A stretch of DNA of 64,000 bases from Marinovum algicola (lineage in GTDB: Bacteria > Pseudomonadota > Alphaproteobacteria > Rhodobacterales > Rhodobacteraceae), in NCBI RefSeq assembly GCF_900109145.1, contig NZ_FNYY01000013.1, positions 1 to 64,000 on the forward strand, given 5' to 3'. The stretch's first letter is position 1; each line of letters starts with the position of its first letter. Position numbers and translations under genes: made by a program. Below the pieces are notes generated by a model. It was not told the DNA's origin, made no database searches, and saw only the letters and a list, made by a program, of their open reading frames with translations. Of this stretch, positions 1-29,471 are shown in pieces.

Positions 1-100
1 TGTCGCGTTTAATTCCCGATTTCAATTGAAGCAGAAAGCTGAAACTGAAGCGCTGGAATTTCATCTTAGCGCTTCACCAACGCGTCAAGATTCCTGAGCT

Positions 101-1240
101 TCACAGCCCTGCGGCTTTGGTCAGGTTCACCCTGAACCTGTCGCGCCTGCGCTGGTAACGCCGGGTCATCTCGGCCGACGCATGTCCCAGGTGCTTTTGA
201 ACATAGCGCTCATCAACCTCTGCCGACGAGGCGAGCCCGGCGCGCAAGGAATGTCCAGAGAACATTGCCAGCCTTTTGGCTTCCGGCAGATCGGATCTGA
301 CGCCGCTCTTCAGAACGGTTGCCTTGATCAGCCGAGCGACGTGCTTGTCGGAGAGGCGGGCCTCGAGGGCACGTTTGCCGTCCCGCGAGGTGCGCACGAA
401 GACCGGCCCAAAGTCGATCTTCGCAAAGTGTAGCCATTGCTCAAGTGCGTGGACAGGACAGGTCTGGTCGCTTGAGCCGCGCCCAACCTCGACCTCGCGC
501 CACCCGGTCTTGGCGTTCAGTGTCAGCAGAGCGCCATCTTCGAAAATCTCGATCCAACCGCCGGAGCCCGGTGTATCATCCTTGTGCACGTCAAGGCTCA
601 CGATCTCGGAGCGACGGAGACCTCCAGCATAGCCCAGAAGTAAGATCGCCCGGTCTCGAAGCCCGCGGAGATCATAGGGAAGGGTGCCCACCATGGCCTG
701 GATGTCCTCGGGCAGGATCGCTTCCTTCTGAACCGGCGGACGCGCGTGTTTGCGCCTAATCCCGGCCAGAACGGTGGCGACATGGCGGTCCTTGCGATCA
801 AGAGTGAACCCTCGCTGCCTGTAATTCCAAGCGATGCCGGAGAGGCGCCGCTCAATGGTGGAGACCGAGAGAGCAGGGGCCTTCCCGGTCGCGGCGGCCA
901 GATCAGCCAGATAAAGTCCAACCATCTCCGGCGAGGGGGGCAGAGGCTCCGTGCCTTTCAACCGGCACCAGCGGGTGAAGTGTTTCCAGTCGGCGGCGTA
1001 GGCCTTGTTCGTGTTCCCAGCCGTCGAGGCCTCGGCATAGTCCCGGGCGGTATCGATCAGCCGGTCGAGCGCGCCGGAGCCGGCCACATGGGCGGGCAGA
1101 GCGATTGAGGCTCCGTCCCGAGAGGTTCTCTCGTCGCGCTCGTCACTGTTCGGCGCGGTATGGGGTGCTGAGCTCGAAATCTCTGCGTCAGACGCGTCAG
1201 AATCCTCGATTTTGGTGCCGCTATTCGTGATACTGCTCAT
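101..1240 (-). CDS. Tyrosine-type site-specific recombinase/integrase
   Basis: Probable DNA strand-exchange enzyme of the phage-integrase family, 379 residues from the chosen ATG at 1240 (another in-frame ATG lies at 1252). The frame is open up to 1555, but that upstream stretch is low-complexity and does not look like integrase. A SAM-like core-binding domain covers about residues 55-165 and the catalytic domain about 175-375. The catalytic set is visible: Arg209 in GGLRRSE, His330 and Arg333 in GHSLR, His353 in LGH and nucleophile Tyr362. The acidic, Ser-rich first 45 residues look disordered. It points away from the DUF1403-scpB-HTH genes, which I infer were its original divergent neighbours before an IS91-type element entered between them. 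A perfect inverted repeat with a 7-bp spacer lies 48 bp upstream of the start. Family call is firm; the substrate site is unknown. Confidence 0.9.
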   Translation of the reverse strand: MSSITNSGTKIEDSDASDAEISSSAPHTAPNSDERDERTSRDGASIALPAHVAGSGALDRLIDTARDYAEASTAGNTNKAYAADWKHFTRWCRLKGTEPLPPSPEMVGLYLADLAAATGKAPALSVSTIERRLSGIAWNYRQRGFTLDRKDRHVATVLAGIRRKHARPPVQKEAILPEDIQAMVGTLPYDLRGLRDRAILLLGYAGGLRRSEIVSLDVHKDDTPGSGGWIEIFEDGALLTLNAKTGWREVEVGRGSSDQTCPVHALEQWLHFAKIDFGPVFVRTSRDGKRALEARLSDKHVARLIKATVLKSGVRSDLPEAKRLAMFSGHSLRAGLASSAEVDERYVQKHLGHASAEMTRRYQRRRDRFRVNLTKAAGL

Positions 1241-1287
1241 GTTTCCGAGCATATCATTTTTCCGTCCGATAATGAAAAAGGTTTGTG

Positions 1288-1314
1288 GCCGCTGGATGCG
1301 CGTTATCCAGCGGC
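1288..1314. repeat. Perfect 10-bp inverted repeat with 7-bp spacer
   Basis: The arms GCCGCTGGAT (1288-1297) and ATCCAGCGGC (1305-1314) are perfectly complementary and separated by 7 bases. The size and spacing match the core crossover sites used by many tyrosine recombinases, and the repeat sits between the recombinase start and the 3' end of the IS91-type transposase. It could equally be the hairpin of the IS91 oriIS end, downstream of tnpA, or an ordinary hairpin; no T-run follows it. Confidence 0.6.
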
Positions 1315-1576
1315 GATAAATCTGCCTTGGACGAAAGCGCGGGCAGAATTTGGGCCTATGGGAATTGCTCTGAACGACTGAGCTCGGTGGCTGTCTGTGT
1401 TGCAGATTTTGGGGTGGGGTGGATGCCGAGTTCGACAAGAAACACCTGTCGTTCTTGCAAAACGAGGGCCTTTGCGCGCGCGGTTCCTGAGCATTTGTCG
1501 TGCTTTCGAATTTGAGCCACACGGACCCGTGCGGTGCCGGGGCGCCGCAGGTCAAGACAAAGGTTCTGCCCTTGTT

Positions 1577-2779
1577 TCATGCGGCGGTTCTCCAAGGTGG
1601 CGAGCGAGATTTCGGGGTCTTGCCGCGCTCGAATGCATCGATGACGACCATGCTGCCGCCGCATTCCGGGCACGTCAGACTCGAGGACTGTTCGTCCGGA
1701 GGGCCGGTCTTGTCGTCTGATGCTTCCTGGTCGTCTTGCGCCTCTGCGGCCAACAGTAATCTGATGGTTTCAAGCCTTGCGCGGCGGATGCCGTTGGCAA
1801 GGAAACCGGTATGGCGGATCCGGTGAAACCCCGGAGGCAGAACGTGGGTCAGGAACCGGCGAATGAACTCCCCCGTTTCGAGACGCATGACCTTCTGGCG
1901 ATTGCGGTTTCTAATCCTGTAGTCCTTCCATCGGAACGCAACCGTCTCGGCATCGGCGCTGACGAGGCGCGAATTCGGAATCGCCACCCTGTGCGTGTAC
2001 CGGCTGAGATAGGCGAGAACTGCCCCGGGTCCTCCGAAGGGCGGTTTGGCGTATACCACCCATGCGGTCTTTCTGAGCGGTGCGAGGTGGGTCTTGAAGA
2101 TGTCCGGGCTCGTCAGATGCGCCAATTGCCCGGAGAAGGCCAGATTTCCGGACCGATGAAGAGCCATCAGTCCTTCCAGGAACAAACGCCGGAACAGACG
2201 GGACACGACCCTCACGGGCAGGAAGAACCCCGGACGGCAAGCAATCCAGTGCTTGCCGCAGGGCGACAAGCCGCCGCCAGGCACGATGATGTGCACATGC
2301 GGGTGATGCGTCAGCGCCGATCCCCAGGAGTGCAGCACACTCGTCATTCCAATCGTCGCGCCCAGATGCTTGGGATCGGCGGCAATCGTCAGAAGCGTTC
2401 TTGAAGACGCCTTGAACAGAAGATCGTAGACAGCCGCCTTGTTCTGCAAGGCGATCTTGGCGATCGTTGCGGGCAGGGTGAAGACAACGTGGAAATATTC
2501 CACTGGCAAGAGGTCGGAGACCCGGGCCTGCATCCAGTGGTGGGCGGTGGCCCCCTGGCATTTCGGGCAATGCCGGTTGCGGCATGAATTGTAGGAGACG
2601 TGCTGGTGTCCGCATTTGGTGCAAGCCGCGACGTGTCCGCCCAGAACAGCCGTCCGGCAGGTTTCAATTGCCGACATGACCTTGAGTTGCGCCTGGCTCA
2701 GGTGACCAGCATTGGCACGACGCCAGGCAGGTCCGTGGGCTCGGAAGATGTCCGCGACTTCGAGTGCTGGTCGGGACAT
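1577..2779 (-). CDS. IS91-family rolling-circle transposase
   Basis: HUH-type single-strand transposase, 400 residues. An N-terminal zinc-binding region contains CTKC (about residues 53-56) and CRNRHCPKC (about 66-74). The metal-binding HUH motif is HPHVH at 159-163. The tyrosine region AYLSRYTHR supplies Tyr257 and Tyr261, the two candidate nucleophiles of a Y2 enzyme. A Cys pair near residue 370 (CPEC) adds a C-terminal zinc-ribbon-like end. No frameshift is visible and the length is normal for the family, so the gene looks intact. It follows the upstream recombinase by 13 bp in the same direction and is probably co-transcribed with it. Confidence 0.93.
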   Translation of the reverse strand: MSRPALEVADIFRAHGPAWRRANAGHLSQAQLKVMSAIETCRTAVLGGHVAACTKCGHQHVSYNSCRNRHCPKCQGATAHHWMQARVSDLLPVEYFHVVFTLPATIAKIALQNKAAVYDLLFKASSRTLLTIAADPKHLGATIGMTSVLHSWGSALTHHPHVHIIVPGGGLSPCGKHWIACRPGFFLPVRVVSRLFRRLFLEGLMALHRSGNLAFSGQLAHLTSPDIFKTHLAPLRKTAWVVYAKPPFGGPGAVLAYLSRYTHRVAIPNSRLVSADAETVAFRWKDYRIRNRNRQKVMRLETGEFIRRFLTHVLPPGFHRIRHTGFLANGIRRARLETIRLLLAAEAQDDQEASDDKTGPPDEQSSSLTCPECGGSMVVIDAFERGKTPKSRSPPWRTAA

Positions 2780-2792
2780 TGGGGACCCGCCG

Positions 2793-3665
2793 TCAGCCGC
2801 TTCCGCCTTTCTCGAGGTTCAGCAGATCCAGAGGGCTCGTCACGTCCCGGATCATCTTGATTGCAACCTTTGTGTAGACGGTCGTGGTCTCCAGCGTCGT
2901 GTGACCAAGCAGCACCTGGATCACTCGGATGTCTGTTCCGTTTTCCAGCAGGTGCGTGGCGAAACAGTGCCTCAACGTGTGGGGCGAGACGTTTTTCTTG
3001 ATATCTGCAAAGTCGCACGCGGCGTGGAACGCGCGGCTCAGCTGGCGGTTTGAAATCGGGTTGGCCGGGTCGCGGCCGGGGAATAGCCAGCCCGCAGGAC
3101 GCGTTTCCCGATAGTAGGCGCGCAAAAGCTCGAGAAGGGTGGGCGACAACATCACCTGCCGATCCTTGCGGCCCTTGCCTTGCTCGACGCGGATCAGCAT
3201 GCGATCGCTGTCGATATCGGACACTTTCAGATGCGTGACTTCATTCGCCCGCAATCCGCAACCATACGCGACACTGAGAGCGGCCCCATACTTCAAGCCC
3301 GGACCCGGCGCCGCGGCCAGAATTCGCGCGACTTCTGCGGCGCTCAGTACGACCGGGATCTGCTTGGCGATCCGCTGGTAACGAAGGTAACGTTTCATTT
3401 CGGACCGGTCGCAGGTCACCGAAAAGAAAAAGCTGAGCGCAGTCAGCCGGTGGTTGAAGGTCGGCGCGCCGGTGCCCTTGTTCGTCATATCGAGCTGAAA
3501 CGCGCGCAAGTCCTCGGGCGTGGCCAAATCGGGCGACCGCCCCAGAAATCTGGCAAACTCGCGCACTGACCGCAAATACATCTTCTGGGTGATTGGCCGC
3601 AGGCCCTTGATGCGCATGTCGTCTAAAAACCGTTGCCGTAGGGCTGGAACATGTTCGCTGGACAA
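2793..3665 (-). CDS. IS91-associated tyrosine recombinase, TTG start
   Basis: Second tyrosine recombinase of the window, 290 residues from the chosen TTG at 3665. The frame is open upstream to 3896, but the extra 77 residues do not resemble the family, and a perfect AGGAGG (3671-3676) sits 5 bases before the TTG. The first 85 residues form the SAM-like DNA-binding domain. Catalytic residues are Arg139 (GCGLRANE), His229 and Arg232 (PHTLRH), His255 (LLGH) and Tyr264. Recombinases of this type commonly precede IS91-like transposases; their exact role in transposition is not established. It is clearly different in sequence from the integrase at 101-1240. Confidence 0.85.
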   Translation of the reverse strand: MSSEHVPALRQRFLDDMRIKGLRPITQKMYLRSVREFARFLGRSPDLATPEDLRAFQLDMTNKGTGAPTFNHRLTALSFFFSVTCDRSEMKRYLRYQRIAKQIPVVLSAAEVARILAAAPGPGLKYGAALSVAYGCGLRANEVTHLKVSDIDSDRMLIRVEQGKGRKDRQVMLSPTLLELLRAYYRETRPAGWLFPGRDPANPISNRQLSRAFHAACDFADIKKNVSPHTLRHCFATHLLENGTDIRVIQVLLGHTTLETTTVYTKVAIKMIRDVTSPLDLLNLEKGGSG

Positions 3666-3889
3666 AGGAACCTCCTGTCGTTCGATTGAGAAGGTCCCAA
3701 TCAAACGACGGTCACACCTATCCGCAAAGACCACAGTCGACCCGGCGTAGTTCGGCGGTAACGAGCGCCAATACCGCGTGAGCGGTTTCGTCCAAGGCAA
3801 GCTTATTGGACATAAACGGATACGGCAAAGCGGGGCGGTTTTCCCAGTATGTGGTAGAACAAAGCGCCGCCATCGGATAGTGTTGTGGC

Positions 3890-4780
3890 ATGGCATATGC
3901 TCGAGCGACCTTCATTGACGACCCTGATACCCTACCTCGGATGCCGCCCTGGGTCACTTCCGCACGCCCCGAAACCCATGAAGATATGGCGTTTTTGTCG
4001 GGCGCGGCGCTGGCGCATCTGCATCTGGTGGTCGGGCGCGATGACGTTCCCCAAGCCTTGTTGCGGGAAAGTTTGGCGCTGCGCGCGGCGGAGGCTTGTG
4101 TGGTACATTCGGGGCGGCCGGAAAGGGCGGCAGACTTGCGGGACGCGTTGGCGTTTCTGCAGCCGGGTGACAGCCCGGGGCCAGCGGGCGAGAGTTATCT
4201 TTCTTGGCGGCGCGCGGTGGAACGACCGGTGGCGGCCAAGGCATTGAACCGGGCGCTGCCGACTTTGGAACCGGAACAGATCGCAACCTGGCTCGAAGTA
4301 GTGAAGGCGGCTCCGGTGACTCAAGCGGCCACCGTCCTGGAGGCCGTTCTTGGAGATCGACCCCGCGACCTCACCTCCGCACTGATTCTCGCGGATGCAA
4401 CTTTGGCGCAGGCGCTCGGGTGGAGCCATGTCCTGCCGCTTCTGGCACTCGGCCTCAAGCGCGGTGATCTTCGAAAAACCGGCGAGGAGTTGCGGCTGAT
4501 CTGTCATCAGGCAATTGGGACGGCAGCAGTTGAGACAACGCACCAGGCCATCGATCTGACACGACGCGCAGCCCGGCTCAAAGAGGCCGCGCCGAAACTG
4601 CGAGCCAGGGGTTCTGACAAGGCAGTGGCCGACTTTCTGGCCCGGGATGCCATCGCCCCTACCGCGCTTACCTCACTGCGGTCCGACCGGGCAGCGCGCC
4701 GCTTTTGCGACCGGCTGGTGGCGTTAGGGGTCGCCCGAGAGCTCACCGGGCGTGACACGTTCCGCCTTTACGGGGTCTAG
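3890..4780 (+). CDS. DUF1403 family protein
   Basis: A 296-residue, largely alpha-helical protein without signal peptide or membrane segment. I recognise the family from the conserved opening (DPDTLPRMPPWV), the block AFLSGAALAHLHLV and the ending ELTGRDTFRLYGV. The family has no established function and is found mainly on alphaproteobacterial plasmids next to an orphan scpB and an HTH protein, as here. The stop is followed after only 2 bases by the scpB start, so the two are probably translated together. The start ATG gives the family's usual N-terminus, and the promoter must lie within or beyond the inserted IS91-type element. The gene seems complete. Confidence 0.8.
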   Translation: MAYARATFIDDPDTLPRMPPWVTSARPETHEDMAFLSGAALAHLHLVVGRDDVPQALLRESLALRAAEACVVHSGRPERAADLRDALAFLQPGDSPGPAGESYLSWRRAVERPVAAKALNRALPTLEPEQIATWLEVVKAAPVTQAATVLEAVLGDRPRDLTSALILADATLAQALGWSHVLPLLALGLKRGDLRKTGEELRLICHQAIGTAAVETTHQAIDLTRRAARLKEAAPKLRARGSDKAVADFLARDAIAPTALTSLRSDRAARRFCDRLVALGVARELTGRDTFRLYGV

Positions 4781-4782
4781 GC

Positions 4783-5382
4783 ATGGTCAAAGATCACGCC
4801 GAAACCGACCTCGACCGGGAATTGGACGATCTGCCAACCGAATTGCGCTGGCGAGAATGGAGGCGGCGGATTGAAGCCGTTCTCTTCGCCAGCGCATCGC
4901 CGGTGCCGCGCGAGGACCTCGCGCGCGTGGTGGGGCAGGGGGCTTCGGTCGATCTGTTGGTCGAAGACCTGGCCGCCGATCTCGAAGGACGATCCTTCGA
5001 AGTGGCGCAGGTGGCCGGCGGCTGGATGCTGCGGACGAGACCGGCCTATGCGGCGGCGATCAGGACGGCCGCGGATGTCGGCGATCAGGATCTCGATCTG
5101 CGCGAATACGATGTCGCGGTCCTGGCCGCCATCGCCTACCACCAGCCGATCACAAGAGACGGGCTGAAGGACATCTTCGGCAAGGAGATCAGCCGAGATC
5201 TGATCGGTCGGCTACATGCCCGTGGCCTGATCGGCACCGGCCCACGGTCGCCGCGGCGCGGGGCACCCTATACCTATGTGACGACGGAGCAGTTCCTGGT
5301 CGCGTTCGATCTGGAGTCGCTGCAGGACCTGCCCGATCGGGAGCAGATGGAGGATGCAGGTGTCATCAATTCCCAGGCGTAG
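4783..5382 (+). CDS. scpB: Orphan ScpB-like segregation/condensation protein
   Basis: A 199-residue protein of the ScpB family, the winged-helix partner of the kleisin ScpA in bacterial SMC complexes. Recognisable features are WRRRIEAVLFASASPVPREDL at the first winged helix and the second-domain segment LAAIAYHQPITRDGLKDIFGKEIS. No scpA or smc gene is in the window, so this copy is an orphan tied to DUF1403. It starts 2 bases after DUF1403. Its last residues may have been altered by the transposon: the 3' end overlaps the tniQ stop by 17 bp convergently, and the sequence past MEDAGV falls at the presumed transposon edge. Whether it works with a chromosomal SMC-ScpA or independently is unknown. 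Confidence 0.85.
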   Translation: MVKDHAETDLDRELDDLPTELRWREWRRRIEAVLFASASPVPREDLARVVGQGASVDLLVEDLAADLEGRSFEVAQVAGGWMLRTRPAYAAAIRTAADVGDQDLDLREYDVAVLAAIAYHQPITRDGLKDIFGKEISRDLIGRLHARGLIGTGPRSPRRGAPYTYVTTEQFLVAFDLESLQDLPDREQMEDAGVINSQA

Positions 5383-6400
5383 TCGTTGCCAATGATGTTC
5401 GACGGTTTGAATGAAGGCGGATGATGGCTCGCTGTAAGGCTGTCAAATCAGGATGTCCGGAGCGTTTCTTTGTTCCCGGTGTTATCTGTGACAATATCTC
5501 TGCACTCAATGACGCCACCAGGTCGGAATGCTTGGACGCTGCCAGTGCAATGCGGGTCCAGAGCTCAATTGCGGGATGCTCGGAATATTTTTGGAGGGGC
5601 ATCATTCCTTCGGTCAACTGGCGGAAGAAAAGATATCGGTCGCGAATTGGAAGACGTGAAATCGATTTGGGTTCCCCATCGAACGTGAAGCAAACGGTCC
5701 CAAGCATGGCGGGCAGGGAGGTCCTCCCGTGCAGTCCATGTCCCGCAACATGCATTCGAAGCAGATCGTCGAGCAGCCGCTCGAGACGATGCACATTATA
5801 CTCGGCGGGCAGCGTGGGTTTTCGGAGATCTGCGTCGCACCAGACACAGAAATGTTGCGGCAGAAGCCGGTTTTGTCGAACAGGCGCGATGCCGCCACGG
5901 CAGGTAGGGCAGTGGTCGCGCAAGCGGCATCCATGCCGAAAGCAGGAAACGCGCGTTGCCAAAGTCCAGCCGCGTCGGAAGTACGGTGCGAGATCCTCTT
6001 TCAGGCACACTGGACAGTATTGCAGGCGATTGAACTGAGCGGTCGATGTGCCAGGATCTCCAGATCCACTGTTGTGCCGCAAACGCAACCGGGCTAGCGG
6101 GTCGCGGTTCAAAGCCAAGCCATCAATATCCTCGGTAGGTAACCGCGTTCGCTCGACCAGCAAATTGAGGATTCGCCCGGGAAGGTCTCGGTCAAGCTTC
6201 GCAGACCAATCTCCAACTGCGACATCCAGAACCCGCCCAAAATATTGAGGTGGAATTCCATTGGCCATGGCCAGCCGATGCAACCAGCTCGACAGCAGCT
6301 CTCCGGGTACCGGTGCAACAACGACGGGCCAGCCTTGCCCCACCTCGTTGCCGTAGTCGCGCGCAGGTGTGACCGTGATCTCGGACGCAGACTGGTTCAC
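5366..6400 (-). CDS. tniQ: TniQ-family transposition protein
   Basis: Target-selection/adaptor protein of Tn5053/Tn7-type transposons, 344 residues. The N-terminal TniQ signature is PGELLSSWLHRLAMANG. Zinc-finger cysteines follow in CPVC, SCFRHGC, CPTC and CVWCD between about residues 130 and 195, which is diagnostic of TniQ/TnsD-like proteins. Its ATG overlaps the tniB stop by 4 bp, so it is the last gene of the tniABQ operon. The stop codon lies about 5 bp inside the presumed left end of the element. The length is ordinary for a Tn5053-type TniQ. No CRISPR-Cas genes are nearby, so nothing suggests RNA-guided targeting. Confidence 0.88.
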   Translation of the reverse strand: MNQSASEITVTPARDYGNEVGQGWPVVVAPVPGELLSSWLHRLAMANGIPPQYFGRVLDVAVGDWSAKLDRDLPGRILNLLVERTRLPTEDIDGLALNRDPLARLRLRHNSGSGDPGTSTAQFNRLQYCPVCLKEDLAPYFRRGWTLATRVSCFRHGCRLRDHCPTCRGGIAPVRQNRLLPQHFCVWCDADLRKPTLPAEYNVHRLERLLDDLLRMHVAGHGLHGRTSLPAMLGTVCFTFDGEPKSISRLPIRDRYLFFRQLTEGMMPLQKYSEHPAIELWTRIALAASKHSDLVASLSAEILSQITPGTKKRSGHPDLTALQRAIIRLHSNRRTSLATTTPGN

Positions 6401-7278
6401 ATCATTTCGCGGCGCAAAGGCGCATTTCGGCGTTTCGACAGGGGCGTGTAACCAAGCGAGGTAATGGTCGCCTCAGAAATGTGTTCCTCGCCGTTCCTTA
6501 TCGCCTTGATGGCCGCGCTGCTCACGATATCGACGACCTCTCCGATCAAGCCCTCTGACAATTCATGGATGATCTCAGCCAGTGACGGTCGCGACAGGTT
6601 CGAGGCGCGGGCGAGAGGGATGCTGGTTTCAAGACTATCGAGGAGCGTCGCGAAATCCTCGTCATACGCCCATCTGGGAATAGGGATCGTATCGAACCGC
6701 GATCCCATTTCCTCGGTGTCGTGTACCGCGTCATAGACCGCAACCTCGCCAACCAGTACGGGCGAAATGTCGTGGACACGTGCGATACGGCGCAGGAACG
6801 AAAAGATAGATTTCACGTCCTGTCGGCGCCCTCGAAGGGCGCTGTGAAACTCATCGAAGATGAGCAGGCGGGGTTTCAAGCTGTCCAGCAAATGATCCAC
6901 CTGCTCGCCCGCGCGCGACAGGCTCCGCCAACCAGATGCCTGAGGCGCGCGCAACCCGGCAAGAATGCTGGCATAGAAGTGAGACAGTCCGGCACCTTCT
7001 CGGGTCTGGATCACCCAGATCCTTTGACGTTCTGACTGCCGCAAATGTTCAATCGCAAAGCGTTCGGCGATCATCGTCTTGCCATTGTGATAGGGGCCTG
7101 TCAGCAAGAGCCCTCTGGGACGCAAGGTTACTGGCCGATCAAGCAGCAGACTCATGGCGTTATGGGCGCGACTTGCAACCGGATGGCTGATCCAACGGGC
7201 CGACCGGATATGGGCGATGCGGCACGCGTCACCAGCATCGAGAAGTGATGCGGCGGAGTCTAGGAGGTGATCAATCAT
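6397..7278 (-). CDS. tniB: TniB-family AAA+ ATPase
   Basis: The transposition regulator ATPase, related to TnsC/MuB, 293 residues from the ATG at 7278. This start follows the tniA stop by one base; a longer in-frame option (7392) would overlap tniA deeply and is not favoured. Walker A is GPYHNGKT at about residues 61-68, and Walker B is RLLIFDEFH at about 136-144. The family binds DNA with ATP and hands the target to the TniA transposase, with TniQ as partner. It is coupled to tniQ by an ATGA overlap. The gene looks intact. Confidence 0.88.
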   Translation of the reverse strand: MIDHLLDSAASLLDAGDACRIAHIRSARWISHPVASRAHNAMSLLLDRPVTLRPRGLLLTGPYHNGKTMIAERFAIEHLRQSERQRIWVIQTREGAGLSHFYASILAGLRAPQASGWRSLSRAGEQVDHLLDSLKPRLLIFDEFHSALRGRRQDVKSIFSFLRRIARVHDISPVLVGEVAVYDAVHDTEEMGSRFDTIPIPRWAYDEDFATLLDSLETSIPLARASNLSRPSLAEIIHELSEGLIGEVVDIVSSAAIKAIRNGEEHISEATITSLGYTPLSKRRNAPLRREMM

Positions 7279-7279
7279 T

Positions 7280-8914
7280 TCACCAATCCTCAACCGGAAA
7301 GACGCGGCGCGGGCGCTCAGGGTCAGGTGTTTCGCGGATTGGTGTCGGGGAAGAAGTGAGGCTCTGGTAGGGTTTCGGCGCATGAGCCGCATGCCTGGCC
7401 CGTGCGACTTCCTTCAGCCTTTGCTTCTTCGATGCCGAGGCATCTACCGTCGCCGCGATTTCGCGGCGGATCGCGGTCTTCTCCTCGATCGGGCGTCGGC
7501 CGGTTTCGCGCGCTCGGCTTCTCTCGGCCCTGTGCTGCCAGAGGGTGACCGCCTCAAGCAGTCCATCCCGCCGCTCCACAGGGCGCCAGGCTCCTGTATC
7601 GGGATCCTTGATGTAGATGTGACTAATGTCCCGAGGATCATAACGAACATCGAGAGCACCCAATCGATCACGGCGGGCGACCAACGGGCCCAACCATGGA
7701 TCGAAATAGTCGTTGGCAAACAGGCTGACACCTTGAGGTGAAATCCTGCGTGTCTTGTTCGGGAGAAAGCTGAGCAGAACGTCGAAAGGGTTGTCTTCCG
7801 GGCCGTCCGGCTGACGGCATTTTCGTTCCCATTCATTGGTCGGGACTGTCAGCTTGCGTTCATTCTGGCTAAGATTGTGATCGATAATCGCCAGCGCGAT
7901 ACAGCGTTCGAGGTCTGCAAAGTTGAGCCTCGCACGGTCTTCGGACAGATACTCACCCCGATCCGCGATGGAACGCCCGGTCTTGCCAGGCAGGGAGCGC
8001 AGCACCGTATTCACCTTGCCTAGAAGTCGTTCGACAACCCCGCCACGATGGACGGTCCCCTTGTTCCGGCTTTGAATTGCAATCCCGTACTCGGCACAAC
8101 CCAGGATGAAACTGGTGCTTCTGAATTCCATGGCGGAATCCACGACGACCATCTTCGGGCGGCCAAACATCGGCCAGGAATGATTGATGTCGCGCGCTGC
8201 CAGCCAGTCCTCCTTGCGGCACATCGCCTGCGCCAGACAGAGGGCGACCGACAAGCGTGAGGGCTGCTCAAGGGTCAGGCAGAAGCCGATAATCGCGCTT
8301 GTTGCAACATCAGCTGCGATGGTGAGATAGGGGCGTCCAACATAGATGCCCTGACCATCGATGACTTCCACAAACTGGATGTCGGCGGGGGTATGGTCTA
8401 TCTGGACGACATCGAGTGCGTGGTTGGCCCGGATATAACCTGGGCGGGGTTTCAGGCGCCGTAGGTTTTTTCCTCCTGAATGTCGCCGTCGTGCAATCTC
8501 CTCGGGCGTGAACAGTCGTGGGATACGCTTGGAAACGGTGACATAGGCAGGCGGATCAAGACCCTCGCTGTCACAACGGGTGCGGATTTCATCGACAATC
8601 GGCGCAAGGTCCGGTTGCTCGGGCTGAAGCCACATCTCCCGAAGGGTTGCCAAAATGATTTCCTCAACAGCCGGGCTGATCCTCGCGCGCCTAGCTCCAC
8701 CTGTCTTTGGCAACAGCGAAGACACCCGATGTTCGGTACGATATCGGCGCAGGTGGTTGTAGACTTGGCGCGTCGAGAGACGCAATTCGGATGCGGCCCG
8801 AGAAACTGCGGTGCGCATAGGCTCTTGCCCGTCCAAAATGCGATCCAGCTCTCGCGCGATACGCGTTGCCTTGGCCCAAGCCTCGTCAGACGCTTCGTTT
8901 TCGCGCAGCGTCAT
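7280..8914 (-). CDS. tniA: TniA/TnsB-family DDE transposase (Mu-type)
   Basis: DNA strand-transfer transposase, 544 residues. An N-terminal helix-turn-helix (about residues 35-60, LRLSTRQVYNHLRRY) is followed by an rve-type integrase core with Asp173 (VVQIDHTPAD), Asp259 (VVVDSAMEF) and Glu295 (GGVVERLLGKVN), the expected DDE triad. A Mu-type beta-barrel C-terminal domain comes after. All catalytic residues are present and the frame is uninterrupted, so the enzyme may be active. It is the first gene of the leftward operon; about 170 bp separate its start from the presumed right end, the usual place for transposase-binding repeats, though I could not define any. Confidence 0.9.
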   Translation of the reverse strand: MTLRENEASDEAWAKATRIARELDRILDGQEPMRTAVSRAASELRLSTRQVYNHLRRYRTEHRVSSLLPKTGGARRARISPAVEEIILATLREMWLQPEQPDLAPIVDEIRTRCDSEGLDPPAYVTVSKRIPRLFTPEEIARRRHSGGKNLRRLKPRPGYIRANHALDVVQIDHTPADIQFVEVIDGQGIYVGRPYLTIAADVATSAIIGFCLTLEQPSRLSVALCLAQAMCRKEDWLAARDINHSWPMFGRPKMVVVDSAMEFRSTSFILGCAEYGIAIQSRNKGTVHRGGVVERLLGKVNTVLRSLPGKTGRSIADRGEYLSEDRARLNFADLERCIALAIIDHNLSQNERKLTVPTNEWERKCRQPDGPEDNPFDVLLSFLPNKTRRISPQGVSLFANDYFDPWLGPLVARRDRLGALDVRYDPRDISHIYIKDPDTGAWRPVERRDGLLEAVTLWQHRAERSRARETGRRPIEEKTAIRREIAATVDASASKKQRLKEVARARHAAHAPKPYQSLTSSPTPIRETPDPERPRRVFPVEDW

Positions 8915-9134
8915 GAACCCGCCGCTCCACGGTTTCTAAACCCCATCTTCTGCCCCATGTTCTCGCTTGTTGAAACGCGAGCTAAAAATTGAAATCGAAA
9001 CGTAAAATACCACGTCGGATTACGCTTCATCCTACTGGAATCCTGTAAGAACTTTTTGATGAAACGGCAAAGCAATTGCGACAGAAGAAGATATCTGGTT
9101 TCTGCCGGGGCCGCTCGAAGAAGACCCGGATGAT

Positions 9135-10082
9135 TTGCCTCCCGGGCCACGCGCACAACCGCCCGAAACGTCCGTCATCGACGACTGGGCAAAGGCGGAA
9201 GGCGCCCAGGCTGCGCTTCTGGCAAGGGTGGCCGGGCGCATGGGGGCGCTGGATGACCGGCTGGAGCGCGGCTCGAAAGGCTGGCGGCACAGACTGGCTC
9301 TGATCGAGGCGGCGGACCTCAGCTGGTACGCTGGTGATCGGGTGAGCCCAGATCGTCTGGCACTGTGGACCTCCATGCGGCTGTCAGGTGTTCAGGATGA
9401 TTCAAATGCCTTGGCCCGGATTGGGTGGGCTGTTCGTCGCCTGACCGGTGGCCCGGGCCCGATGACCGATCTGGCGGCCTTCCTTGACCGCCGTGATCCC
9501 GAGACCATCGAGGAGACAGCCGAACGGTTCGAAGATCGCGCGAGCGGATGGATAGACGTGATGACGGCAGCGGCCGATCTGCACCCGATCACGCGCGCCT
9601 GCATGGGCTTTCATCTCTGGAGCCTGGCGGGCCTCGGCCAACACGGCGACCAGATCGAGGCAACCGTCACAGCAGCCCGGATCGCGGCCGGTGACGGACG
9701 CGGTGCCATCTTCGCACCAATCGCCAAGGGTGGGGCAGGGGGGCTGCGTGCCTCCGGCCTGCCGTTCGAGCGGTTGACCCACTGGCTGGATGGGATGAAC
9801 AACACCATTCTGACGGCGATGCGCCATCTGGACGACATCGAAGCCTGGGATGCACGGGCAGAAGCTGCGATGGCTCGGCTCTCCGGGCGCACACCGGCCG
9901 GTCTCCGCTCTGTATTGACCGAATGGCCTTTGGTGTCGGCCCCAATGGCGGAAGCCTTGACCGGCGCAAGCCGCGCGGCTGTGCAGCGCAATCTGGCCTG
10001 GATGGAAGACCGGGGCCTAATTCAAGAAGTAACCGGGCACGGGCGCTACAGGATGTGGCGTATCGATATCCAGGTGAGTTGA
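9135..10082 (+). CDS. HTH protein of the DUF1403-scpB module, start codon apparently lost
   Basis: A 315-residue protein from a TTG at 9135. The family-like sequence begins earlier, around ATEEDIWFLPGPLEEDPDD, encoded in frame from 9078. An in-frame TGA at 9060 closes the frame and no ATG or GTG precedes this block; an ATT stands at 9075 where a start would be expected. I infer that insertion of the TniABQ element removed the original start and junction with scpB. The body is helical (DWAKAEGAQAALLARVAGRM, LIEAADLSWYAGDRV), ending in a winged helix (ALTGASRAAVQRNLAWMEDRGLI, about 265-295) likely to bind DNA. The family accompanies DUF1403 and scpB on plasmids; its function is unknown. Expression from TTG or ATT is possible but unproven. 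Confidence 0.7.
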   Translation: MPPGPRAQPPETSVIDDWAKAEGAQAALLARVAGRMGALDDRLERGSKGWRHRLALIEAADLSWYAGDRVSPDRLALWTSMRLSGVQDDSNALARIGWAVRRLTGGPGPMTDLAAFLDRRDPETIEETAERFEDRASGWIDVMTAAADLHPITRACMGFHLWSLAGLGQHGDQIEATVTAARIAAGDGRGAIFAPIAKGGAGGLRASGLPFERLTHWLDGMNNTILTAMRHLDDIEAWDARAEAAMARLSGRTPAGLRSVLTEWPLVSAPMAEALTGASRAAVQRNLAWMEDRGLIQEVTGHGRYRMWRIDIQVS

Positions 10083-10603: not shown

Positions 10604-11344
10604 ATGCGAATGACAGTATCGCCTCGCAGGAATGTGGCCGGGTTCAATCTGAAATCTTATCTGCTTTCATCATGGTGGGCGCGCCACCTGATCGTGATTT
10701 TGATCGGTGCGGCCGGGACATGGCTGTTCTTGTACAGCCGCATCGAGTGGTCGCCGATGCACCGCTGGAACAGGGCCGTTGGTGATATGTCGATTGTTCT
10801 GGTGGCAGCCGCCATGTCGCTTGGTCCCGTGTCGCGTCTGTGGCGCAGTACGGCGGTATTGTTACCCTACCGGCGCGAATTGGGCATATATGCGGTGTTG
10901 CTGGCATTCATACACGCCACGATCATCTTGATCGGCTGGGTGAACCTGGATCTCATGCGTCTTGTCGGCTTTGAATTTCACCCGGGACTGCAAAGATACG
11001 TCATGGTGCAGCACGGATTTGCGATTGCCAATCTGATTGGTGTCCTTGCATTGCTTTACGGTCTGATTTTGGCCGGTACGTCGAACGACCGAAGCCTCCG
11101 GTGGATGGGAAGTTCGGTTTGGAAATTTGTACAGCGGGGAACCTACGTGCTGTGGTGGCTGTCAGTTGTACATACCGGCTACTTTCTGTACCTTCACTTC
11201 CTCGATTTTCATCGGGCGACGCCCGAACCGAACTGGGTTCAATGGCCTTTTGCCGGTTTGGTCGGTACCGTCCTGGCCCTTCAGATCGTCGCGTCGTCCG
11301 CCACCCTGTACAAAGTACGCCGACGCGGTTCCGCGGCATCTTAG
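10604..11344 (+). CDS. Ferric-reductase-like transmembrane (MsrQ/YedZ-type) protein
   Basis: A 246-residue integral membrane protein with about six hydrophobic helices (LIVILIGAAGTWLFLY, LGIYAVLLAFIHATIILIGWV, YVLWWLSVVHTGYFLYLHFL). His residues within the helices (AFIHATI, VVHTGYFLYLHF) fit the haem-ligating positions of the ferric-reductase-like domain, which passes electrons across the membrane to a periplasmic partner such as MsrP. No msrP gene adjoins it, so the partner is unknown. The ATG at 10604 follows a good ribosome-binding site (GGGAGA). It is a single gene bounded by the gene-poor stretch on the left and about 300 bp without a gene on the right. Confidence 0.75.
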   Translation: MRMTVSPRRNVAGFNLKSYLLSSWWARHLIVILIGAAGTWLFLYSRIEWSPMHRWNRAVGDMSIVLVAAAMSLGPVSRLWRSTAVLLPYRRELGIYAVLLAFIHATIILIGWVNLDLMRLVGFEFHPGLQRYVMVQHGFAIANLIGVLALLYGLILAGTSNDRSLRWMGSSVWKFVQRGTYVLWWLSVVHTGYFLYLHFLDFHRATPEPNWVQWPFAGLVGTVLALQIVASSATLYKVRRRGSAAS

Positions 11345-12253: not shown

Positions 12254-13240
12254 ATGAAGCATTTTCTGACCGCTCGCCTTGCCGCCTCGACCGCAGCCCT
12301 GGCCCTGATGACCTCCGCCGCGCTGGCCGAGAAAGAGCTGCGCATCGGCCTGATCACGCCGCCGCCGCATGTCTGGACGCAAGTGGCCAATCGCATGGCA
12401 GACTCGCTGCCGGACGAATCGGGCGACGCGCTTTCGCTGGCCGTCTTTCCCGCCGGACAGCTCGGCTCCGAGCAGGAAATGTTTCAGCAGCTGGGTACCG
12501 GTCTGCTTGACGCCGCGCTGATGACCGGCGCGATCAGCAGCCTGCGGGCGCCGTCGCTGGCCGGCTGGTTCACGCCGTATCTTTTCGAGGATGTCAGCGC
12601 CGCCGCCGCCGCCGCCGAAACCCCGGCCGCGCAGGAGATGCTGGACGAGCTGCAACGCGCAGGGGTCCAGGGACTGGGCTATACCTTCGCCGGGATGCGC
12701 CATATCCTGATGCGCGAGGGCCTGATTGAAACCCCCGACGACCTCGTCAACGAGAAGATCCGCATCGTGCCCTTCCCGGCGATGCAGACCTGGTGGCAGG
12801 CGGTGGGCGCCGTGCCGACGCCGGTCAATCTCGGCGACGTCTATTCCGGGCTTCAGAGCGGCTTGCTCGACGGCATCGACATTGACCTTGACGCACTGGT
12901 CGGCCTGAACTTTCAGGAAGTTGCGGGCGGCCTCACCCTGACCAACCACATGGCCTTTCCGGCGGTGCTGGTGGTGTCGCAGGCCACCTGGAGCGGAATG
13001 AGCGAAGAAGAACGCGCCGCCTTCACCGCCGCGGCGGAAGAGGCGCTGGCCTGGGGCACCGAACAGCAGGTGGCGGCGGAGAGCGCCAATATCGCCTCGC
13101 TCGATGGCCAGATCGAGATCGGCCGCGTCGAGAACGGCAACGAGGTCTTCGGCACCGCCAATGCCGCCTTCCAGGAGGCTTACGGTTCCAACGACATCAT
13201 CAGCCGCTTTCAGGAGCAGGCCCGCGAGGCCGCCCAATGA
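12254..13240 (+). CDS. dctP: TRAP transporter substrate-binding protein DctP
   Basis: Periplasmic solute receptor, 328 residues, with a clear signal peptide (MKHFLTARLAASTAALALMTSAALA, cleaved before EKEL). Internal motifs of the DctP family are the ligand-carboxylate region KIRIVPFPAMQTWWQAVGAVPTPV (about 173-196) and YSGLQSGLLDGID. It has a strong GGGAGG ribosome-binding site. It heads an operon with dctQ and dctM and then the gentisate enzymes, so it probably imports an aromatic acid such as 3-hydroxybenzoate or gentisate into the cell; the substrate is inferred from position only. Overlaps dctQ by ATGA. Confidence 0.9.
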   Translation: MKHFLTARLAASTAALALMTSAALAEKELRIGLITPPPHVWTQVANRMADSLPDESGDALSLAVFPAGQLGSEQEMFQQLGTGLLDAALMTGAISSLRAPSLAGWFTPYLFEDVSAAAAAAETPAAQEMLDELQRAGVQGLGYTFAGMRHILMREGLIETPDDLVNEKIRIVPFPAMQTWWQAVGAVPTPVNLGDVYSGLQSGLLDGIDIDLDALVGLNFQEVAGGLTLTNHMAFPAVLVVSQATWSGMSEEERAAFTAAAEEALAWGTEQQVAAESANIASLDGQIEIGRVENGNEVFGTANAAFQEAYGSNDIISRFQEQAREAAQ

Positions 13241-13764
13241 CAGCCGCAACCCGGACCACTGGCACGGCGGAGCAAATCATGCTCCGCCTCTCGGACCGGC
13301 TCGTCGCCGTCGAGCGGGTCGTGAGCCGGGTGATGGTGGTGGGCTTCGTCGGCCTGATCACCGTCAATGTCGGCATGCGCTACCTCGCCGGCCGTCCGAT
13401 CGTCTTTGCCGAGGAACTGGCGGCAATCATGCTGGTCTGGCTGGCCTTCGTGGCAATCTCGATCTCGCTGCATGACCGCGCCCAGATCGGCGTCACCCTG
13501 CTGGTCGACAAGCTGCCGGGCTTCGCCAGGCGGGCGATGGAGGTGGCGGTCAACCTGATCATTGCGGCCATCCTTGCGGTGCTGCTGTGGAAATCGGTGG
13601 TCTGGGTGAACTCGCCCATGGTGGCCTTCGAACAGGTGATCACCACGGGGTGGAAGAAATGGCCGTTCTTTTTGGTGGTTCCGCTCTTCTGCATCACCGC
13701 CTTCATTCACGTGGTCGCGCATATCCTGCGCCCGACCGGCGAACATCATGAGGTGACCCTGTGA
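13237..13764 (+). CDS. dctQ: TRAP transporter small permease DctQ
   Basis: A 175-residue inner-membrane protein with four predicted helices (VVSRVMVVGFVGLITVNVGMRYLAG, FAEELAAIMLVWLAFVAISISL, VNLIIAAILAVLLWKSVVWV, FFLVVPLFCITAFIHVVAHIL). The W-x-F block after the second helix and the overall layout are standard for DctQ. It overlaps dctP at its start (ATGA) and dctM at its end (GTGA), so the three subunits are translationally coupled. It forms the membrane complex with DctM. Confidence 0.9.
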   Translation: MTAATRTTGTAEQIMLRLSDRLVAVERVVSRVMVVGFVGLITVNVGMRYLAGRPIVFAEELAAIMLVWLAFVAISISLHDRAQIGVTLLVDKLPGFARRAMEVAVNLIIAAILAVLLWKSVVWVNSPMVAFEQVITTGWKKWPFFLVVPLFCITAFIHVVAHILRPTGEHHEVTL

Positions 13765-15020
13765 CCGGCCTCAGCTTTCTTGTCCTGCTCGGCACCGGCA
13801 TGCCCATCGCATTCGTGCTGATCGCCACCACCTTCGTCTTTCTCTACATGGCCGACCGTCTGCCGGTGCTCGACGCGGTGCCGCAGATCGCCTTCGGCAG
13901 CGTCGAGACCTTCGACTTGCTGGCCATCCCGCTCTTCGTGATGCTGGGCGAGATCATGAACGAAGGCGGGCTGACCCGGCGCATCTTCCGCGCCGCCCGC
14001 GCCTGGCTGACCCGGGTGCGCCACGACCTGCCTTTGGTCAATCTGATTGCCAACCTGGCACTGGCCGCCATCATGGGCTCGGCCACCGCGCAGATCGCGG
14101 TGATGAGCCGCACCGTGGTGCCGGAAATGGAGAAGGCGGGTTACGGCCGCGGCTATTCCACCGCCATCACCGCCGCCGCCGGACTGCTTGGCCCGATCAT
14201 CCCGCCCTCGATGATCCTGATCATCTTCGGCGTGATCGCGCAGGTCTCGATCGCCGACATGTTCCGTGCGGGCATCGTGCCCGGCCTGATCCTCTTTGCC
14301 CTGATGCTGGGCTTGACCCTGTGGCAGGCATCGCGCAACCAGACCCATGGCGCCGCGACCCGTCCGGTCGAGACCAGCCGCATCAAGGCCAGCCTGCCCG
14401 GGCTCGCCACCATGCTCATTCCCTTCGTGATCGTCGGCGGTATCAGCTTCGGCGTCTTCACCCCCACCGAATCCGCCGCCGTCGCCATCGTCGTGGCGCT
14501 GATCCTCGGGGGACCGGTGTTTCGTGATCTCACGTGGAAGAGCCTGCCGGCGATCCTCGACCGGACGGTGCAGAACTCGGCCATCGTGCTGTTCCTGATC
14601 ATGGCCGCCAAGGTGTTCGGCTGGGTGCTGACCTTCAACCAGATCCCGCAGGCCGTCGCCGCCTTCATCGCCTCGCTGACCCAGGACCCGACGATCTTCA
14701 TGATCCTCGTCATGCTGTCGCTGGTCGCGGTGGGCATGTTCCTCGACGGCATCGCGGCGCTGATCATCATGGTGCCGATCCTGTTGCCGGTCGCCACCGC
14801 GACCTATGGCATCGACCCGGTGCAATTCGGCATCATGGTCTCGATGACGCTGGTGCTGGGCCTGCTGACGCCCCCGGTGGGTGCCGGGCTCTACATCGCG
14901 GCGGCCATCTCCGAGGTGCCGATCACCCGGCTGTCGAAGCTGGTGGCGCCCTACGTGCTGGCCTCGGTCCTGGTGATCTTCATCGTGATCCTTTTCCCCT
15001 GGGTTGTCCGGCCCTTCTGA
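13761..15020 (+). CDS. dctM: TRAP transporter large permease DctM
   Basis: The 419-residue, about 12-helix membrane subunit that carries out sodium-coupled transport. Family blocks include FDLLAIPLFVMLGEIMNEGGLTRR near residue 50 and the hairpin-loop segment GLLGPIIPPSMILIIFGV near 140. It begins with GTG overlapping the dctQ stop. The 3-hydroxybenzoate hydroxylase follows 38 bp later. Length is normal and nothing is missing. It completes a tripartite transporter whose likely cargo is the aromatic acid degraded by the downstream enzymes. Confidence 0.9.
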   Translation: MTGLSFLVLLGTGMPIAFVLIATTFVFLYMADRLPVLDAVPQIAFGSVETFDLLAIPLFVMLGEIMNEGGLTRRIFRAARAWLTRVRHDLPLVNLIANLALAAIMGSATAQIAVMSRTVVPEMEKAGYGRGYSTAITAAAGLLGPIIPPSMILIIFGVIAQVSIADMFRAGIVPGLILFALMLGLTLWQASRNQTHGAATRPVETSRIKASLPGLATMLIPFVIVGGISFGVFTPTESAAVAIVVALILGGPVFRDLTWKSLPAILDRTVQNSAIVLFLIMAAKVFGWVLTFNQIPQAVAAFIASLTQDPTIFMILVMLSLVAVGMFLDGIAALIIMVPILLPVATATYGIDPVQFGIMVSMTLVLGLLTPPVGAGLYIAAAISEVPITRLSKLVAPYVLASVLVIFIVILFPWVVRPF

Positions 15021-29447: not shown

Positions 29448-29471
29448 CGCGGCAGGAGTGGTGATTGCCAC

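Follow-up and report, generated by a model that had tools for sequence, protein, structure and literature searches.

A probable site-specific recombination system of RepABC-type plasmids, comprising Int, DUF1403 and an orphan ScpB, on a TniABQ transposon of Marinovum algicola

The genes for a tyrosine recombinase (Int), a DUF1403 protein and an orphan ScpB at the start of contig C21 (NZ_FNYY01000013.1) of Marinovum algicola probably form a site-specific recombination system of RepABC-type plasmids. The window, that is, the whole stretch of 64,000 nucleotides which was analysed, is the start of this contig in a 5.4-Mb draft genome of 62 contigs. The key element is a crossover site in the gap between Int and DUF1403, which was absent from a preliminary description of this DNA; Int and this site are well supported, by sequence comparison, as a plasmid recombination system.

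Genes of the window and their conserved neighbourhood

The following features were identified (position, strand where assigned, identity):

1 to 9083: TniABQ transposon, an identical repeat of 9,083 bp, with termini TGTCGCGTTTAATTCC.. (left) and ..GCAATTGCGACA (right)
101 to 1240, minus: Int, tyrosine recombinase of 379 amino acids, 100% identical to the annotated integrase of pNS6003 (L064)
1262 to 1272, plus: left arm of the crossover site, CCGTCCGATAA
1273 to 3795: IS91-type insertion within the crossover site, absent from L064, L042 and L040
1577 to 2779, minus: IS91 family transposase (NF033538, 8.8e-128)
2793 to 3896, minus: second tyrosine recombinase open reading frame, part of the IS91-type insertion
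3796 to 3813, plus: spacer GGCAAGC and right arm TTATTGGACAT of the split site
3832 to 3869: conserved inverted repeat GGGGCGGTTT..AAAGCGCCG between the site and DUF1403, with GGCG and CGCCG invariant in 60 unique loci
3890 to 4780, plus: DUF1403 protein of 296 amino acids (PF07183, 2.7e-86)
4783 to 5382, plus: ScpB, plasmid-type orphan of 199 amino acids (PF04079, 1.4e-35)
5366 to 6400, minus: TniQ
6397 to 7278, minus: TniB, with its start taken from the annotated L064 copy (the longest open reading frame reaches 7392)
7280 to 8914, minus: TniA transposase
9084 to 9088, plus: GAAGA, 5-bp target duplication, which also terminates the left flank on contig C47
9084 to 10082, plus: rest of the interrupted host gene, with an HTH_13-like end and a weak RHE_PE00001 match

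The Int open reading frame was listed as 101-1555 on the minus strand and the gene was taken as 101-1240 by its identity with the annotated pNS6003 copy; the HxxR, LGH and tyrosine catalytic motifs were all present. The open reading frame at 2793-3896 extends beyond the insert, so its true start should be inside it, and the stop ends of the TniQ and ScpB genes overlap. Profile matches confirmed that the recombinase, DUF1403, ScpB, IS91-type and TniABQ genes of the preliminary description are real, and the tight coupling which it had reported for DUF1403 and ScpB was borne out by a gap of 2 bp between the stop of the former (4780) and the start of the latter (4783). The ScpB is also an orphan with respect to ScpA, as had been proposed, the single ScpA match of the genome being located on contig C32 beside the chromosomal scpB and none being encoded with the ScpB of the module. 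Further into the window, a ferric-reductase-like membrane protein (PF01794) at 10604-11344 and, from reading of the open reading frames, an apparent TRAP-type transporter set at 12254-15020 were observed.

DUF1403 was searched against 394 genomes of the family to which the window belongs (by its named relatives, the Rhodobacteraceae in the broad sense), of which 84 were matched (78 above the DUF1403 family's own cut-off) in 129 match rows; with no more than 5 candidates scored in each genome, the copies per genome are to be read as "at least". Of these rows, 5 belong to the genome of the window and 29 are fragments or weak matches; without them the survey set consisted of 95 rows from 71 genomes, which are partly dependent in that several loci can come from one genome. 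ScpB was found directly downstream of DUF1403 in 94 of the 95 loci, while a divergent Int homologue was located upstream in 67 (65 of 86 when loci with at least 1.5 kb of upstream sequence are considered). The preliminary description had suggested a conserved neighbourhood of DUF1403, and this holds for ScpB and Int and fails for its HTH gene, a homologue of which (E ≤ 1e-5) was detected in 8 of 95 loci. When tallied per locus, Int and the site were both present in 62 loci, Int alone in 5, the site alone in 6 and neither in 15. Replication genes were found nearby in the 95 loci, namely RepA in 46 (within about 5 kb), RepB in 35 and RepC in 32.

DUF1403 matched 680 plasmid records at E ≤ 1e-5, and 4 matches were obtained among 385 evenly drawn genomes of the class; nothing useful was obtained from a DUF1403 search of viral contigs. 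Among 17 plasmid regions, hand-picked for diversity from 60 listed rows and thus non-random, Int, DUF1403 and ScpB occurred together in all 17, and repA, repB or repC was annotated in 14 (the exceptions being L069, L074 and L077). Toxin-antitoxin pairs were observed between Int and DUF1403 in 5 of the 17 (L068, L071, L073, L074 and L078), which makes the gap an insertion hotspot beyond transposons.

The crossover site and recombination at it

The crossover site is a 29-bp palindrome, ATGTCCGATAA-N7-TTATYGGACAT, with an asymmetric spacer of 7 bp. Of the 90 loci with enough sequence, 74 have it no more than 450 bp upstream of DUF1403, and of these 74 copies 56 carried no substitution, 15 carried one and 3 carried two. 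The site was positioned exactly 105 bp from DUF1403 in 61 loci and only one further match was detected elsewhere in the 95 loci. A decayed version occupies the same place in L154 and L171, and in distant plasmids both arms change together (e.g. ACGAACGATAA/TTATCGTTCGT in L066).

In the window itself the IS91-type element, inserted no more than 1 bp from the boundary of left arm and spacer, splits the site, which leaves this copy without an intact one; Int, DUF1403 and ScpB are whole but the crossover site is probably dead. The insertion of this element between Int and DUF1403 had been recognised in the preliminary description, as had the expectation that uninterrupted relatives would display the original junction, and the IS91-free copies of L064, L042 and L040 agree with both. 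Elsewhere in this genome, copies of the site (with at most 2 mismatches) were located on contigs C52 and C58.

The arms match the attA/attD crossover site of the Rhizobium etli integrase IntA. The attA sequence is given in PMC4928290 as TCCGATAAGCATTACTTATCGGA, i.e. TCCGATAA-N7-TTATCGGA, and the p42a record contains TCCGATAAGCAGTACTTATCGGA at position 2595, adjoining the integrase gene and differing from the published attA by one spacer base. IntA is not closely related to the Int of the window (28% identity, E 1.7e-13), so that the site is common to two distant branches. On p42a (L081, 1339-5805) a His-Xaa-Ser (hxs) peptide-maturation cluster was observed beside the integrase and attA, at the place where DUF1403 and ScpB would be expected. 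The site pattern was also matched exactly in 27 viral contigs (L226-L252), where the spacers vary and the outer bases of the arms mostly agree; an Int homologue (33-36%) was present in only two of these stretches, L234 and L236; phages may use or carry the crossover site.

Evidence of exchange at the site was found in natural plasmids. Two plasmids of genome G422 correspond to pDSHI01 and pDSHI03 of D. shibae in where the module lies, and for pDSHI03 sampled sequence matches as well. When both plasmids of G422 are taken as circular, they are identical over 61,467 bp beginning at the first base of the site, of which each carries exactly one copy, and the remainder of the sequence which they share is 88-93% identical, save for one near-identical, inverted block of 6.3 kb. 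In pDSHI03 the second crossover lies near position 29,455, among ordinary annotated genes. A shared region of more than 50 kb in these sister plasmids has been noted previously (PMC4886583), and the words integrase, recombinase and site-specific were not found in the main text of that paper.

Pairwise identities among 49 loci were correlated at r=0.80 on the Int side and at r=0.87 on the DUF1403 side, compared to only 0.26-0.36 across the two. In adjacent 200-bp windows of 42 loci, the correlation across the site was r=0.21 (95% bootstrap 0.09-0.35), compared to 0.53-0.78 for the four steps to its left and 0.65-0.94 for the first four steps to its right. Further to the right, values of 0.54 and 0.56 were followed by a fall to r=0.27 close to the ScpB end (+1229/+1429), so linkage drops elsewhere as well as at the site.

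Switches of ancestry at or inside the core were observed in L124/L126, in L119/L121/L122/L124 and in L127/L133/L134, that of L127 being placed between core positions 6 and 21 (zero-based). L119, L121, L122 and L124, which belong to four genera, show one mismatch or none over 2.4-4.9 kb on the Int side and are about 80% alike on the other side. Between L064 and L040 there are 122 differences in the 1,262 bases on the left of the site and 4 in the 5,270 on its right; the window, on the left, has no mismatch to L064 over 1,272 bp. As far as sequences can indicate, such natural switches fit strand exchange within the core.

The transposon that carries the module

Positions 1-9083, which start with TGTCGC and terminate with GCGACA, were repeated without mismatch at four contig ends, those of C21, C28, C40 and C47. 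A left flank is present on two of these contigs and a right flank on the other two, so the simplest reading is that the genome holds two copies; these are identical, IS91-type insert included, from which it follows that the transposon multiplied after its crossover site had been broken. The preliminary description held that TniABQ had entered between ScpB and the HTH gene and so split the module, and this was rejected: Int, DUF1403 and ScpB are all enclosed by the ends of the transposon, at 1 and 9083, which therefore carries the module, and the HTH gene is outside it.

On C47 the left flank ends with GAAGA, apparently inside the beginning of an HTH-type gene, and GAAGA recurs at 9084 of the window, where a gene of the same kind continues. 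The protein of 9135-10082 has a C-terminal likeness to HTH_13 (1e-4, under the curated cut-off). In six of the eight survey loci with a homologue of it (L133, L134, L139, L170, L177 and L193), the homologue directly follows the right end of the transposon from query residues 1-4, and starts at approximately the same position as in the window. The same arrangement was seen in C40 and in L041, but L041 is the same contig as L170. The homologue in L136 occurs without Tni genes, upstream of the crossover site, and L159 holds only a fragment. The HTH gene is thus the gene entered by the transposon, and the HTH protein was rejected as a member of the module.

The TniABQ genes and the 5-bp duplication GAAGA, which one of this genome's two flank pairs shows, are those of the Tn5053/Tn402 group; no target duplication was found at the C28/C40 flanks, nor in L064 and L040. 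Elements of the Tn5053 family are known to target the sites on which recombinases act, and they carry res-tniR (PMC7765201). A search of 1-9083 with three queries gave no match to a serine recombinase, and hence no res-tniR resolution module. On C28 (L028, 5789-6505) the left end of the transposon was seen to cut a serine recombinase gene at approximately residue 55, beside an apparent repABC; this recombinase is 94% identical to one of D. shibae. In genome G743 two near-identical transposon copies (L192 and L193) have flanks which are seemingly swapped, CCGGC being present in the left flank of one and in the right flank of the other.

A Tni gene match was found in 20 of the 95 survey loci. 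In six survey loci and plasmid L070 a Tni element lies just upstream of the crossover site, with its end at 27 bp (L070, L130, L153 and L174), 42 bp (L118 and L148) or 55 bp (L205) from it. The four 27-bp flanks differ from one another, as expected of res-site hunters (PMC7765201). The Tni ends of L070 and L153 are identical at 281 of 300 positions and their 27-bp flanks at 15 of 27, which suggests that the elements inserted independently at one offset; the Tni element of L070 is flanked by a duplication of ACCCA.

Proposed function and comparison with known systems

We propose that Int would cut and rejoin DNA at the 29-bp site, as IntA does at attA, and that its usual task would be to convert multimers or cointegrates of low-copy plasmids into monomers; the resolution of multimers and cointegrates is likely to be the main role of the system. 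Recombination of different plasmids at the common site would reshuffle their replication and cargo halves. In the TniABQ transposon, which is without a tniR resolvase, the Int module may supply cointegrate resolution.

Judged from constant linkage, fixed spacing and a conserved repeat, DUF1403 and ScpB are plausible accessory factors of recombination. The repeat GGGGCGGTTt..AAAGCGCCG, which separates the crossover site from DUF1403, is possibly an operator or accessory site; in the least certain step of the proposal, DUF1403 and a ScpB dimer would be accessory DNA-binding proteins at GGCGGTT..AAAGCGCC which regulate or bias the reaction. The DUF1403 model, of modest confidence (mean pLDDT 66), is all-helical and includes a long helix; it gave no significant match with Foldseek (best SoFic 3eqx, E 0.98, TM 0.38), nor did the sequence against PDB sequences (best E 0.63). 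Alignment of DUF1403 with the HTH protein by hhalign covered 27 C-terminal columns (probability 4%, E 0.0099), so that a winged helix common to the two is only a suggestion. A more specific version, in which ScpB, a kite protein, and DUF1403 were recruited as an accessory complex of the tyrosine recombinase that loads at the repeat and makes recombination resolution-selective, and in which the site is a common splice joint of RepABC plasmids across genera and a landing place of TniABQ, is put forward tentatively and is rather doubtful as a whole.

DUF1403 and ScpB could instead be a separate partition or condensation pair which feeds on the chromosomal SMC-ScpA and merely lies beside an Int/site cassette; this we regard as unlikely. 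ScpB is a known SMC partner, RepA lies within about 5 kb in 46 of the 95 loci, and linkage is high within DUF1403 and low across the site. The 15 loci which have at least 1.5 kb upstream and carry DUF1403 with neither Int nor site, together with the 5 that have Int without the site, also indicate that the pair may have another role. However, the 105-bp spacing between site and DUF1403 is kept even where Tni is located between site and Int (L130 and L153), Int accompanies the pair in most loci with enough upstream sequence (65/86), and the sole ScpA match in the genome is chromosomal.

Exchange between plasmids does not by itself establish a resolution function, and the selected function may be plasmid fusion and cargo exchange, with co-transfer of non-conjugative plasmids, although we consider this somewhat less probable still. 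Low-copy plasmids need a resolution system, which counts against such a reading, and the single site on each of pDSHI01 and pDSHI03 fits resolution. Cross-plasmid and cross-genus chimeras at the site speak for exchange, but exchange requires a second crossover, which in pDSHI03 falls among ordinary annotated genes. Exchange is also favoured by the IntA precedent of cointegration (PMC4928290), and co-transfer of non-conjugative plasmids is described for p42a and the symbiotic plasmid.

A four-gene defence or segregation module that includes the HTH protein and was split by two mobile elements is highly improbable, for although all four genes lie inside 10 kb, the HTH homologue is confined to few loci and mostly to the right end of the transposon, the other three genes are enclosed by the transposon ends, and no PADLOC family was matched by Int, DUF1403 or ScpB. 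From the earlier suggestion of a recombination or defence module, a recombination-linked plasmid module of Int, DUF1403 and ScpB was therefore retained and an anti-phage defence role was rejected.

In the open-access literature searched, no mention of DUF1403 was found, nor of repABC together with scpB; 'segregation and condensation protein' was absent among the matches listed by a broader search, and none of the matches listed by a search with the site letters was, by title, on the subject. A description of the module was not found in the accessible parts of PMC5613091, PMC9426580 and PMC6209633. With the present reading the DUF1403 family acquires a function that can be tested, and the mosaic structure of RepABC plasmids a concrete mechanism, which extends to the long identical stretch of the D. 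shibae sister plasmids. Plasmid modules can be delimited by means of the crossover site, and a testable question is raised as to whether ScpB works in recombination without ScpA and SMC.

Compared to IntA/attA of R. etli CFN42 (p42a and p42d), the system has the same two-arm site with a 7-bp spacer and identical inner arms (TCCGATAA/TTATCGGA), and in both a tyrosine recombinase gene lies beside the site and recombination takes place between plasmids. IntA, in contrast, works without DUF1403-ScpB beside it, so that recombination of this kind does not in general depend on the pair. Xer/dif, Cre/loxP and plasmid multimer-resolution systems likewise combine a tyrosine recombinase with palindromic arms, a short spacer and one site per replicon; the system of the window differs from them in its own dedicated recombinase plus the DUF1403-ScpB pair, which does not resemble the accessory proteins PepA, ArgR and FtsK. 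The plasmid ScpB, like that of chromosomal ScpAB-SMC, covers nearly the whole Pfam model, whereas it is 35% identical to the chromosomal ScpB, follows DUF1403 almost invariably and is encoded in a module without an ScpA or SMC gene. The Tn5053/Tn402 res-site hunters have TniABQ, the 5-bp duplication and a preference for recombinase-used sites in common with the transposon of the window, which differs from them in that a tyrosine-recombinase module lies at the expected place of res-tniR and in that window-type copies enter the HTH gene repeatedly.
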